The notes beneath the pieces are model-generated. The model searched no databases. It saw only the letters and a program-made list of their open reading frames with translations, and was not told the DNA's origin. A stretch of 64,000 nt of DNA, from positions 1,123,639-1,187,638 of the forward strand of contig NZ_JAKGSB010000001.1 in NCBI RefSeq assembly GCF_021568905.1. Reading direction: 5' to 3'. Positions 17,234 to 57,994 of the stretch are shown piece after piece. Source of the stretch: Zavarzinia marina (GTDB taxonomy: Bacteria; Pseudomonadota; Alphaproteobacteria; Zavarziniales; Zavarziniaceae). The translations under genes were made by a program, and so were the position numbers. How positions within the stretch are numbered: the stretch's first letter is position 1; every line of letters starts with the position of its first letter.

Positions 17234-19371
17234 TTGTAGATCCTGGACGGAATGTGGAACCTGCGCCCCGTCATGACGAAGCCGAGAAGATCGCCGCCGG
17301 CGTCGAGCACCGCCTCCCGCGTCCAGGTCGCCGCCGGGCTGCGGGTGACTTCGGCCCGCATCATCAGAACCGTGGCATCGACCACGGCGGCGACCCGGCG
17401 GCCGGTATGGCTGCGTGCCAGGGTGGACGAGACGACCAGCACGATACCGAAATTGTCGCGCAGGTCGGCGATGTTTTCGACCGCTTCGCGCAGCGAACAG
17501 CGCATGTCGAACACGGCGCCGTGCAGGGGATCGATCAGGTGATAGACGCCGGGACGCCCCGGCACGGCGGCGAATTTATTGCCGCCCACCTCGCCTTCCG
17601 GCTCCACAGCGCCGCGCACGCCGAGACCGCGGGCGACCGTCGAACCATCCGACAGGTCGACCAGAAGGGCGCGCAGCCCGCGCCGGTCGGCGCATTCGGC
17701 GAGCAGCCCGGCGATCACGGCGATGTCGCCGTCGTCGGCGCTGATCGGCAGCATCTGCACGGTGTTCATGCCGCGGTCGCCGATCCGCGTGTCGAGGATC
17801 TGCGAGGCGAGGAAGCTGAGTTCCTCGTCCGAGGCGCGGTCGCCGGGCTTCGGCTTGCCCATCATGAAGCTGGCGAGCGCGGGCAGGTCGAGGCGCTTCT
17901 CCGCCTCGCTCGGCAGCAGGAAGACCTGGCGGTTCCAATTGGCGGCGAGCCCGCCCGCGAGGCCCATCATGATCGAGCCGAAGATGCTGGCGGCGAGGAA
18001 GCTCCAGGCCATGGTGGTGCCGGTCACGGGCACGTCCGGCAGTTCGACCACGCGGACGTTCGACGAGCGTTCCTGGGCCGCCTTCTCGTCCATCTTCACC
18101 GCCTCGGTGCGCAGCGCATATTCCTTGTAGATGTCTTCCTGAACGGTGCGCGAGCGTTCGAGCTGATGGAGGATGAGCTGGGCCTCGCGCAGCATGTCGA
18201 TGCGCGCGATCGCCTCCTGGTGCAGGCGCTCCAGCTCGATGATCTGGTTGTTCAGCGCGTCGCGCTCCACCCGCAGTTCAAAGAGGCGCGACTGCATGTA
18301 GTCGAGGGTCGGGTTGCGAACCTCGCGCTGGGAGTAGTATTGCGGCGCCGCCTTGGCCGCGATCGAGGCCTTCAGCCGGTCGATCTTGTCCTGCACCAAT
18401 TTGGTGCCCGGATAGTTGGGACCGTAGTTCTGCCGCAGGCTGAGCAGATCCTGCTCCAGCTTGGTCAGCAGGTTCTTGTCCTCGTCGTTGGTGATCTCGT
18501 TGGTGATCTCGCGGAAATCGAACAGTTTTTCCGGAAGCTGCGTGATGCGCTCCTGGGTCTGGTCCGCCTGGGTGCTGACGGTGGCCAGTCTTTCCTGTGC
18601 CTGGCGCTTTCGCTGCAGCAGGATGTCGGCCTGATTGACCGCCATGTTGATGTCCTGGTCGATGTCCAGGATGCCGTAGCGCTGCTTGGTGTCGCGGATC
18701 TGCTCGTCGATCTCCTGCAGGTCGGTGCTGAAGCGCGCCATTTCCTCGGTCAGGAGGGGCGAGCGCGGCACGTCGTAGACGCTGCGCCGGTGCTCCTGAT
18801 AGGCGGTGATGACGGCGGTCGCCATTTCCGCCGACAGGCGGGGATCGACGTGGCGATAGGTGACGCGGACGATGCTGCTCTCCTCGCGCACCTCCGCCTT
18901 CAGATCCTTGCGCAGCAGTTCGACGGCGCGCTGCTGGCGCTCGTCCACCGGCACGGGCGGCAGCAGGCCGAACAGCCGGCGCTTGGCCACTTCCGGATAG
19001 AGAACCTCATAGCCGACCTTGCGCAGCGCGCGTTTCAGTACGCCGTCCGACATCACGATCTCGGCCTCGGACTGCACGAGATTCAGGCCCTCGACCGAGA
19101 CCACGGCCGGCCCGGTGGTGCCGACGCCGTCGCTGCCGCTGTGCTCGCGCGAGACCAGGACGAGAAGAAGGCCGGTCGAATTATAGTATTTCTTGGCCGT
19201 GATCGCCGCGGCGCCGCCGATCAGCAGGGGCACGAGCGCGGCGACGACGATGGTGCGCCAACTGTAGAAGGCAAAGATCAGCAGGTCGCGCAGGGTATAG
19301 CCTGCGCGGACAGACGCCGTCGGCCCCGATCGCCCATCATGGCCCATGGTTGCCGCCGCTGCCGGCATCAT
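17224..19371 (-). CDS. Wzz-like chain-length/co-polymerase protein with degenerate BY-kinase domain
   Basis: 715 residues. Membrane helix 1 is near 33-58, a long periplasmic coiled-coil region runs about 150-440 with PNYPGTKLVQDKI at 318-330, and helix 2 is near 453-477. A C-terminal cytoplasmic domain follows the fold of bacterial tyrosine kinases, but the expected P-loop is ADDGDIA (545-551) with no GK[ST]. Walker B is also lost and there is no tyrosine cluster at the end. A partial A' motif ALLVDLSD remains at 568-575. The protein is probably a non-catalytic co-polymerase. It is the first gene of the operon; the start among three nearby ATGs is uncertain. Confidence 0.9.
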   Translation of the reverse strand: MMPAAAATMGHDGRSGPTASVRAGYTLRDLLIFAFYSWRTIVVAALVPLLIGGAAAITAKKYYNSTGLLLVLVSREHSGSDGVGTTGPAVVSVEGLNLVQSEAEIVMSDGVLKRALRKVGYEVLYPEVAKRRLFGLLPPVPVDERQQRAVELLRKDLKAEVREESSIVRVTYRHVDPRLSAEMATAVITAYQEHRRSVYDVPRSPLLTEEMARFSTDLQEIDEQIRDTKQRYGILDIDQDINMAVNQADILLQRKRQAQERLATVSTQADQTQERITQLPEKLFDFREITNEITNDEDKNLLTKLEQDLLSLRQNYGPNYPGTKLVQDKIDRLKASIAAKAAPQYYSQREVRNPTLDYMQSRLFELRVERDALNNQIIELERLHQEAIARIDMLREAQLILHQLERSRTVQEDIYKEYALRTEAVKMDEKAAQERSSNVRVVELPDVPVTGTTMAWSFLAASIFGSIMMGLAGGLAANWNRQVFLLPSEAEKRLDLPALASFMMGKPKPGDRASDEELSFLASQILDTRIGDRGMNTVQMLPISADDGDIAVIAGLLAECADRRGLRALLVDLSDGSTVARGLGVRGAVEPEGEVGGNKFAAVPGRPGVYHLIDPLHGAVFDMRCSLREAVENIADLRDNFGIVLVVSSTLARSHTGRRVAAVVDATVLMMRAEVTRSPAATWTREAVLDAGGDLLGFVMTGRRFHIPSRIYKWL

Positions 19372-37199: not shown

Positions 37200-37619
37200 T
37201 CACATCGGTGGCGGCGCGGGCGCTTCGGCGCCGCCCGTGGCCCCGCGATTGAGATGGCCGGCGATGATCCGCAGCGCCGCCGCATGGCGATTCGCCACCG
37301 TATTGCGGTGGCAGCCGATCAGGCGCGCCAGGCGGGCGACGGAAACCCCGCTGGCGAGCGCCCAGGCGATCCGGCGCTGCGGCTCGCTGAGAAGGCCGAG
37401 CCAGCCGATCGTCGTCTCCAGCCGGTCGATGGCGCCGGGGCTGGGCGGGCCGAGGCGAACGGAAGGGCCGGCGGCGGCATAGGCGGTGGCGGCATCGCGC
37501 ACCACGTCCGGCCAGGCGGAGCGCAGGCCGAGGCGGAATCGCGCCTCCCCGTCCGGCAGGCGGCGCAACGTGTCGGCGGCTTCCCGGAGGCGATCCACAA
37601 CCATTTCGTTCGTCCACAT
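37200..37619 (-). CDS. DUF6362-like HTH protein
   Basis: 139 residues. The N-terminus WTNEMVVDRLREAADTLRRLP and the C-terminal IDRLETTIGWLGLL followed by a helix-turn-helix (GVSVARLARLIGCHRNTVANRHAAALRIIAGHLN in blocks) match the DUF6362 group, often found on alphaproteobacterial phage and prophage-like segments. It is divergent from the XRE/S24 repressor across a 123-nt region with two palindromes. Probable DNA-binding protein. No other phage genes are nearby. Confidence 0.6.
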   Translation of the reverse strand: MWTNEMVVDRLREAADTLRRLPDGEARFRLGLRSAWPDVVRDAATAYAAAGPSVRLGPPSPGAIDRLETTIGWLGLLSEPQRRIAWALASGVSVARLARLIGCHRNTVANRHAAALRIIAGHLNRGATGGAEAPAPPPM

Positions 37620-37668: not shown

Positions 37669-37686
37669 GAACAAAACAAGAACATT

Positions 37687-37742: not shown

Positions 37743-38402
37743 GTGAACAATCGCTTGGCCGAATTGCGCCGGCACGCCGGCCTGACCCAGGACCAGCTGG
37801 CGGAACGCGCGGGTACCGGCCGCTCGCAGATCGTCAAGCTGGAGCGGGGGGAGCGGCGCCTCACCATCGACTGGATGCTGCGCCTTGCCGGCCCGCTCGG
37901 CTGCGATCCGAAGGACCTGCTGCCGGCCGATCCCGCATCGGTGGCGTCGGCGCCGACCTTGGCCGAAGTGGCGCCCCCCCTCCTGCCCTGGGCGCTGGGC
38001 CCCGGGGGCCAGCCGGCGCGCGACCTGCCGGTCTGCGGCGCCGCGCGGGGCGGCGCCAATGCCCTCTTCGTCGATCAGGGCCAGGCCCTCGAACATGTCT
38101 TCCGGCCGGCGCAGCTGACCGGCGTCGCCAATGCCTTCGCGGTCTATGCCGTGGGCGATTCCATGGAACCCAAGTTCCAGGCCGGCGACCTCCTGTTCAT
38201 CAACCCGAACCTGCCGCCCGTGCGCGGCTGTTTCGTCGTGGTCGAGTTGGGCGATCACGAAGCCTATGTGAAACAGTTCCTGCGCCAGTCCGACCAGGAT
38301 CTGTGGCTGAAGGAATTCACCCCCGAACCCCGCGAATTCGCCATCGAAACCGCGCGCGTGAAGGCGATCTACCGCGTCGTCGGCAGTTGGGAGGGGCGCT
38401 GA
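37743..38402 (+). CDS. XRE-family HTH repressor with S24 (LexA/CI-like) peptidase domain
   Basis: 219 residues, GTG start after GGGAGCAACACC. The N-terminal HTH is RLAELRRHAGLTQDQLAERAGTGRSQIVKLERGERRL in blocks (4-40). The C-terminal S24 domain has the nucleophile in GDSMEPKFQAGD (Ser140) and the general base in YVKQFLR (Lys177). A possible cleavage region is VCGAARGG (97-104), but it lacks the canonical Ala-Gly in the expected place. This resembles a phage CI-type repressor. Whether it self-cleaves in the SOS response is open. Confidence 0.88.
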   Translation: MNNRLAELRRHAGLTQDQLAERAGTGRSQIVKLERGERRLTIDWMLRLAGPLGCDPKDLLPADPASVASAPTLAEVAPPLLPWALGPGGQPARDLPVCGAARGGANALFVDQGQALEHVFRPAQLTGVANAFAVYAVGDSMEPKFQAGDLLFINPNLPPVRGCFVVVELGDHEAYVKQFLRQSDQDLWLKEFTPEPREFAIETARVKAIYRVVGSWEGR

Positions 38403-54913: not shown

Positions 54914-54928
54914 GTTCTCTTTTTGTTC
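54914..54928 (+). promoter_or_regulatory. LexA-type SOS box (GTTC-N7-GTTC)
   Basis: GTTC at 54914-54917, seven nucleotides (TCTTTTT), then GTTC at 54925-54928: an exact match to the direct-repeat LexA box of alphaproteobacteria. It sits 21 nt before the radical SAM start and would cover a promoter whose -10 may be CATGAT (54937-54942). A chance match is possible because only eight bases are fixed, but the position is right. Confidence 0.6.
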
Positions 54929-54949
54929 CAACCATGCCATGATAGCTGC

Positions 54950-56131
54950 ATGGAGAAGACCCCGCGATCGCCGAAACCCGTAACGCCACGCCGCGTCTTC
55001 GTGCCCGGCGAAGCGACGGAGGCTGGCATCGGCCGAAAGGACGGCTCCTCGGTCGCCGATGCCGGGGCCAGGGCCGGGCGCGGCGTGCTCTCCAACACGG
55101 GCGGGCGCTTCGAGCGCAGCGCCCTCACCGCCCTGGACGACGGCTGGGGCAGCCTGGACGAGCCGGCCCCCCGGATCGCGACCACGGTCACCACCGACAA
55201 GGCGAAGACGGTGATCGCCCGGAACGACAGCCCGGATATTTCCTTCGACCGCTCCATCAACGCCTATCGCGGCTGCGAGCACGGCTGCACCTATTGCTAC
55301 GCCCGCCCGACCCACGCCTATATGGGCCTCTCCCCCGGCCTCGATTTCGAAACGAGGCTGTTCGCCAAGCCCGACGCCGCCGCCGTCCTCGAAAAGGAGC
55401 TGGGCGCCCGGGGCTATCGCTGCGCGCCGATCGCGCTTGGCACCAATACCGATCCCTATCAGCCGATCGAGAAGAAGCTGGCCATCACCCGCGCCATCCT
55501 CGAGGTGCTCGATCGCTGGAACCACCCGGTCACCATCGTCACGAAGTCCGCCCTGATCACCCGCGACGCTGATATCCTTGGGCGCATGGCGGCGCGCAAT
55601 CTGGCCAAGGTGGCGATCTCGGTCACCACCCTCGACCGCCGTCTCGCCCGGCGGATGGAGCCCCGCGCCGCGACCCCCGAAAGGCGGCTGGAAGCGATCC
55701 GCGTCATGGCCCAGGCGGGCATTCCGACCGGCATCATGACCGCCCCCATCATCCCCGGCCTGACCGATCACGAGACCGAGGCGATCCTGGAGGCCGGGGC
55801 CGCCGCCGGTGCCCGGATCGCCGCCTATGTCCTCCTCCGCCTGCCGATGGAGGTGCGCGACCTGTTCCAGGAATGGCTGGCCGCCGCCCTGCCGGAAAGG
55901 GCCCCCCGGGTGATGGCCCTGGTGCGCGACATTCGCGGCGGCAAGCTGAATTCGGCCGAATTCGGCCTGCGCCAGCGCGGCCAGGGCCCCTATGCCGATC
56001 TGATCGCCAAGCGTTTCCGCCTCGCCTGCGCCCGTCTCGGCCTCGATACGACGCGCAGCAACGCCCTCGACACCACGCGCTTTCGCCCGCCGCTGGCCTC
56101 GGGCGGGCAGATGGCGCTGTTCGGCGATTGA
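54950..56131 (+). CDS. PA0069/Rv2578c-family radical SAM protein
   Basis: 393 residues. The radical SAM cluster motif is CEHGCTYC, Cys109, Cys113 and Cys116. The N-terminal GRFERSALTALDDGW and the following SINAYRGC, ALGTNTDPYQPIEKKL, VTKSALITRD and TLDRRLARRMEPRAATPERRL blocks are characteristic of the PA0069 family, which is related to spore photoproduct lyase-like proteins but of unknown function. The upstream LexA-type box suggests a DNA-damage role. The start may be leaderless or very short-leadered. Confidence 0.9.
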   Translation: MEKTPRSPKPVTPRRVFVPGEATEAGIGRKDGSSVADAGARAGRGVLSNTGGRFERSALTALDDGWGSLDEPAPRIATTVTTDKAKTVIARNDSPDISFDRSINAYRGCEHGCTYCYARPTHAYMGLSPGLDFETRLFAKPDAAAVLEKELGARGYRCAPIALGTNTDPYQPIEKKLAITRAILEVLDRWNHPVTIVTKSALITRDADILGRMAARNLAKVAISVTTLDRRLARRMEPRAATPERRLEAIRVMAQAGIPTGIMTAPIIPGLTDHETEAILEAGAAAGARIAAYVLLRLPMEVRDLFQEWLAAALPERAPRVMALVRDIRGGKLNSAEFGLRQRGQGPYADLIAKRFRLACARLGLDTTRSNALDTTRFRPPLASGGQMALFGD

Positions 56132-56163
56132 CCGCGCGGCATGGCGGCGCCATAAGCGCCGCC

Positions 56164-57994
<1,831 letters not shown>

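Follow-up and report, generated by a model that had tools for sequence, protein, structure and literature searches.

A LexA-type box and a clamp-type tail suggest an SOS role at DNA lesions for a PA0069-family radical SAM protein of Zavarzinia marina

The gene considered here lies in a stretch of 64,000 nucleotides of Zavarzinia marina (contig NZ_JAKGSB010000001.1), denoted the window, and raises the question of what a radical SAM enzyme does when its gene stands directly behind a LexA-type box. The gene occupies 54950..56131 (+), starts at ATG 54950 and encodes a protein of 393 aa. This protein matches PF04055 and scores 515 bits with NF033668 (PA0069 family radical SAM protein; cut-off 360), bearing out the family named in an initial annotation made from the sequence alone. 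With the Rv2578c family model, NF038135, it reaches 216.8 bits, below that model's cut-off of 430. The NCBI model name for the PA0069 family assigns no function; of 299 genomes sampled across the phylum, 144 contained a member over the cut-off. A pattern scan places the box, GTTC-N7-GTTC (GTTCTCTTTTTGTTC), at 54914..54928 (+), and the ATG follows 21 nt past its end, as the initial annotation had it.

Scanning the window for GTTC-N7-GTTC gave three matches, with 1.53 expected; at least three were obtained in 19 of 100 shuffles, which is not significant, and we consider the box to be above chance because it is conserved among orthologues. Over the whole genome the pattern matched 81 times, and its backward reading 30 times. 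LexA is encoded on the minus strand (match C9:630460-631170), and lexA itself is preceded by two boxes, at 631216-631230 and 631241-631255, at distances of 45 and 70 nt from the matched region. Boxes with an AT-rich spacer also precede uvrA and an imuA-like gene, the latter matching its model with 50 bits, below the cut-off of 150. Upstream of recA no exact box was found; a candidate with one mismatch was picked out by eye. Since boxes are present at lexA, the imuA-like gene and uvrA, GTTC-N7-GTTC very probably serves as the LexA motif in Zavarzinia marina.

The orthologue set comprised five loci of the own family (the window's included), 80 loci of named genomes, 94 loci of the same class and 48 of other classes. 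The named loci carry alphaproteobacterial labels except L016 and L017 (Candidatus Marinimicrobia) and L021 (uncultured bacterium), and the 80 and the 94 loci have one identical protein in common. The 94 and 48 loci stem from the even draw of 299 genomes across the phylum; together with the window's own they represent 143 of the 144 genomes over the cut-off, an interrupted copy (G296) being left out. For the drawn genomes we infer the same class to be the Alphaproteobacteria and the other classes to be gamma- and beta-Proteobacteria. A box was counted when it had the orientation of the gene and lay upstream of the matched region by at most 500 nt, and the window's gene was counted once among the 179 loci of the first three sets.

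GTTC-N7-GTTC was found upstream of 5/5 own-family genes, 76/80 named and 88/94 further same-class genes, altogether 169/179. The controls gave far lower counts over the same three sets: 0, 1 and 5 for the reversed box (6/179), 0, 0 and 1 for N6 spacing (1/179), 0, 3 and 2 for N8 spacing (5/179), and 0, 4 and 1 for the box on the opposite strand (5/179). In the orthologues of other classes the alpha-type box was found in 0/48, and CTGT-N8-ACAG, the E. coli-type SOS box, in 31/48, as opposed to 0/48 for three controls. The exact box searched for was thus not found at 10/179 and 17/48 loci. LexA control seems to have been kept across a change in LexA's own motif, because CTGT-N8-ACAG replaces the alpha box outside the class. 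The initial annotation had read the box as a sign of SOS control and had proposed a survey of orthologues; with the box conserved in the own family and across the class, another LexA motif outside it and boxes at lexA, the imuA-like gene and uvrA of the same genome, that reading is well supported. SOS control of the PA0069-family gene is almost certain on these sequence grounds, and as a member of the LexA regulon the gene would be expected to bind LexA upstream and to be induced by DNA damage.

SOS regulation of such a gene is not new as an idea, having been predicted in 2012. In its parts on 'splB', that study (PMC3323433) makes the same regulatory claim for a homologue of spore photoproduct lyase: in the alpha- and the beta-Proteobacteria the gene has LexA sites, and control is predicted through two different LexA motifs. 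The 'splB' of PMC3323433 would be the PA0069 family, because Sinorhizobium meliloti belongs to the species set of that study and carries on pSymB a gene that is annotated as PA0069 family and possesses the box GTTCTTGCTTTGTTC.

The distance between box and start suggested a particular promoter geometry, which we followed in the 167 orthologues whose box and start were usable, taking the first in-frame ATG. In 101 of the 167 this ATG lies no more than 30 nt past the end of the box. Within these 101, TANNNT begins exactly at -12 from the ATG in 35, compared with one to five at the two flanking positions on each side and no more than 11 anywhere else. A Shine-Dalgarno-like sequence precedes the ATG in 18 of the 101, in contrast to 43 of the 61 orthologues whose ATG is 31-120 nt away. 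All five own-family genes have their ATG 21 nt after a box, together with a hexamer at -12 whose second letter is A and whose sixth is T; one of them, L012, has a second box in an overlapping region nearer its ATG. In the window the probable -10 hexamer is CATGAT at 54938..54943 (+), which begins 12 nt before the ATG, at the peak of TANNNT in the orthologues, and matches the consensus in part only. A strict sigma-70 scan of the window's promoter region called no promoter. The peak at -12 and the scarcity of Shine-Dalgarno-like sequences favor the suggestion, already made in the initial annotation, that the transcript is leaderless, and the radical SAM mRNA is probably so.

To place the protein, its sequence was compared with those of the orthologues in an alignment of 228 rows, consisting of the window and the loci (227 loci enter the motif counts, and the window's gene stands twice among the 228 rows, as the window and as L011). 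L029, L220, L246, L250 and L255 were omitted from alignment A1 for partial or odd ends, and L189 because its coordinates gave a stop. The CxxxCxxC motif of the [4Fe-4S] cluster and SAM, here CEHGCTYC at residues 109-116 (55274..55297, plus strand), has its three cysteines in 228/228 rows. In the AlphaFold model of the window protein (mean pLDDT 89) the closest relative by predicted fold is spore photoproduct lyase. The first six matches of a Foldseek search against the PDB are all structures of this enzyme; it compares with Z 19.2-19.9 over 263-269 residues, the next enzyme reaching 15.2; among the other fold matches, SuiB, lipoyl synthase, SkfB and NifB come out at Z about 15. A profile-profile comparison with five sequences of the lyase family gave a probability of 96.3 and E 1.5e-9. 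When the PDB was searched with a sequence profile, spore photoproduct lyase was not among the matches with E of 10 or less. The distant likeness to this enzyme noted in the initial annotation therefore holds for the predicted fold.

Spore photoproduct lyase (PF20903; PDB 4fhc and mutants) shares with the PA0069 family the radical SAM fold, the cluster motif and the tyrosine within that motif, and differs in being a separate family by profile and in a donor cysteine that is absent here. The hydrogen-donor cysteine of the lyase is Cys140/141, and the titles of C140 mutants among the PDB matches fit this role. It aligns with T165 of the window protein, a position that is Thr in 160/228 rows and Cys in 0/228. 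The only conserved cysteines are the three of the cluster, with no conserved fourth, and 70/227 proteins have no cysteine at all besides these three. The protein is thus one with a predicted lyase fold and without the lyase's known quenching residue in its aligned sequence, and because this cysteine is missing, the substrate is probably not spore photoproduct.

One could still propose that the protein works as a genuine spore photoproduct lyase, or in nearly the same way, reversing UV thymine dimers by cysteine-quenched chemistry under SOS control. The closest solved fold agrees with this, and so does Y115, between the second and third cluster cysteines, which is Tyr in 227/228 rows. Right after the third cysteine the window has a further tyrosine, Y117, at what we take to be the place of the second relay tyrosine; this residue is Phe in 174/228 rows, however. 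The window protein also has a cysteine, Cys158, seven residues before T165, yet Cys occupies this position in only 53/228 rows. PF20903, the Pfam family of the lyase, has 0 matches in the own genome at E 0.001 and reaches its cut-off in 5/299 genomes, and eight same-class loci with this Pfam family (three strong, 246-273 bits; five weaker, 108-125 bits) carry no box upstream. PMC3323433, where it treats the SOS-controlled 'splB', reads it as photoreactivation, and this reading is on the side of a lyase; the study describes the trait as not observed in Gammaproteobacteria. Taken together with the aligned threonine, the data make a true lyase unlikely.

A further feature of the PA0069 family is found at its C-terminus. 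The window protein carries QMALF at residues 387-391 of 393 (56108..56122, plus strand), recognised from the alignment and from the published consensus of clamp-binding motifs, which PMC12309361 gives in the relevant passage as QL[S/D]LF or QxxLF; QMALF fits QxxLF and differs from QLSLF. Q387 is Q in 227/227 non-gap rows and L390 is L in 226/227, and the motif closes with F in 132 and with L in 89 of the 228 rows. The pattern Q..L[FL] occurs in the last nine residues of 209/227 orthologues (164/179 and 45/48 by group), compared with 3/2558 other ORFs of at least 150 aa at the same loci, and it is exactly C-terminal in 176/227, compared with 1/2558. Thirteen rows miss a looser pattern, ten of them with near variants (such as QLSLI, QMRLAF and QMALDL) and three with truncated or altered ends. 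Spore photoproduct lyase has no such motif: 4fhc ends QYFT and the matched regions of three lyase loci end LYWT.

Beyond the family, the related Rv2578c family of Actinobacteria (NF038135) shows the same feature, in that three of three actinobacterial relatives (35-37% identity) likewise end QxxL[FL], as QESLF, QLRLL and QEPLF; one of the three also has a box of the actinobacterial type, GAAC-N4-GTTC. More distant radical SAM proteins gave 0/8 with the strict tail pattern, and six of them have no such tail. The protein of Gemmatirosa ends QLSLGI and misses the strict pattern, and two clostridial outgroup radical SAM proteins end QLSFF and EQLGF. Because of these two, a clamp-type tail may be wider than the PA0069 family.

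The tail could serve a different purpose, such as packing against the protein's own fold, in an SOS-controlled enzyme that acts on something other than DNA, be it RNA, protein or the nucleotide pool. Radical SAM enzymes have many substrates, and the fold is matched by SuiB, lipoyl synthase, SkfB and NifB too, but the lyase is clearly ahead in the fold search. The residues ahead of the motif are modelled with good confidence (pLDDT 90-95 at 361-380 and 79 at 381-390), the tail appearing as a short C-terminal helix after a coil; this confidence speaks against a free, exposed tail. Against packing, the motif fits the clamp consensus, stands at the very C-terminus or close to it, behind a linker of variable length, and is kept in the actinobacterial relatives, and we regard action on a non-DNA substrate as quite improbable. 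DnaN is encoded in the own genome, and it is likely, judging by the conserved motif, that the protein docks on the DnaN sliding clamp. Fold, regulation and tail together make a role in processing a DNA lesion likely. The C-terminal clamp motif and the missing lyase cysteine are new here, beyond the regulation predicted in 2012; the parts of PMC3323433 on 'splB' mention neither of them, nor the leaderless promoter.

The initial annotation had also pointed to UDG, rnhB, ccrM, mutY and smc around the radical SAM gene. Downstream, rnhB (RNase HII) occupies 56164..56796 (+), its inferred start lying 32 nt past the radical SAM stop, and is followed after 2 nt by the frame of a ccrM-type adenine methyltransferase at 56798..57994 (+), with PF01555 and RAMA matches and 610 bits to the CcrM model, below its cut-off of 830. 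The true ccrM start is probably some tens of nt inside this frame, since the family match begins at residue 27. While rnhB, ccrM and mutY were confirmed, the argument drawn from them is weakened, as the box is also present where rnhB does not follow: rnhB is directly downstream in 2/5 own-family, 56/80 named, 15/94 same-class and 0/48 other-class loci, and neighbourhood as the main argument, which would leave the box unexplained, was given up. Because the box is more widespread than this gene order, the radical SAM gene is its likely target. That the box serves mainly the SOS control of rnhB and ccrM, with the radical SAM gene merely first in an operon, would suit the short gaps here and the named loci, but is highly improbable, given that 88/94 drawn same-class genomes have the box and so few of them rnhB, that 31/48 loci of other classes have a LexA-type box without any rnhB there, and that a hairpin separates the two genes here.

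This hairpin, a perfect one of 15 bp with the loop CATAA, lies at 56136..56170 (+), between the radical SAM stop and rnhB, and extends over the probable rnhB ATG at 56164. It has a z of -5.8, and 0/200 shuffles were as stable. It is not followed by a run of T; the window contains the core at one place, and the hairpin was not seen in the relative L010. It is a possible attenuator; induced transcription might run on into rnhB and ccrM, though the hairpin intervenes. A Pfam scan of 73 of the 119 putative downstream proteins revealed no shared repair partner, many of these ORFs being perhaps spurious and rnhB being undercounted (the omitted 46 were mostly shorter or had many alike, and include 13 with rnhB directly downstream); carbonic anhydrase was the commonest family, with seven.

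The interpretation that best accounts for these observations, and which we regard as probable, is that of an SOS-induced, sliding-clamp-docked radical SAM enzyme that processes a DNA lesion other than spore photoproduct. LexA bound at 54914-54928 would block a promoter with a -35 region overlapping the box and a -10 at about 54938-54943; transcription would then begin at the ATG or right beside it, giving a leaderless mRNA. Upon DNA damage RecA would provoke the self-cleavage of LexA and the radical SAM gene would be turned on, yielding an enzyme with the predicted fold of spore photoproduct lyase. Its C-terminal motif would dock it on DnaN, so that it would act on DNA close to the replication fork, alongside the translesion polymerases of the SOS response, and its 5'-deoxyadenosyl radical would reverse or process a lesion there. 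LexA-type boxes kept through a change of motif, together with a near-universal clamp-type tail, suggest a step of radical chemistry at the replication fork. Somewhat tentatively, the family could represent an unrecognised class of SOS DNA repair, in which a clamp-carried radical SAM enzyme without the lyase cysteine undoes or processes a replication-blocking lesion for which there is no known radical SAM repair enzyme.

PA0069 of Pseudomonas aeruginosa itself is reportedly on the LexA target list of Cirz 2006. Within the literature searched, no publication was found on PA0069 with LexA, on Rv2578c with LexA, or on the LexA/SOS regulon with radical SAM and photolyase. Likewise, the searches made found no publication that brings a clamp-binding motif together with radical SAM: papers on QLSLF and the clamp include none on radical SAM by their titles, and a search for radical SAM, sliding clamp and SOS listed only papers on antibiotic biosynthesis and cancer therapy. 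In the relevant passage of PMC7485682, PA0069 appears within a strain name. A related link was drawn in 2013 (PMC3765255), where SplB-like radical SAM proteins are noted in ImuB-C/SOS operons. That is a gene-context link to SOS mutagenesis proteins, in which the radical SAM protein is an operon partner, and the passages on it make no mention of a clamp motif.

Some further observations concern neighbouring genes and other boxes. In 3/5, 49/80 and 26/94 loci moaB (molybdenum cofactor protein B) lies upstream of the PA0069-family gene, which indicates an old neighbourhood with no obvious link. On a plasmid of Legionella adelaidensis (L263 805-3553) the PA0069-family gene is divergent from a gene for a PolX-type DNA polymerase/exonuclease, and on a plasmid of conjugative type in Runella slithyformis (L280 1087-2901) a more distant radical SAM gene stands directly before a gene with a UvrD-helicase domain. 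At G000:C9:457868-457882 (L095 1469) a box, GTTCTTTTTTTGTTC, lies just past the gene of the DNA polymerase III chi subunit (L095 705-1394); those of the small frames nearby that were scanned had no family match. In the window, a match at 18058, with a GC-rich spacer, resembles a chance occurrence. The match at 37669-37683 (-) reads GTTCTTGTTTTGTTC, the commonest form among the orthologues, and lies between a phage-type gene (DUF6362, 37203-37619, minus strand) and a CI-like repressor with S24-peptidase and HTH domains (37743-38399, plus strand), an arrangement that looks as if the switch of a mobile element were also under host LexA.
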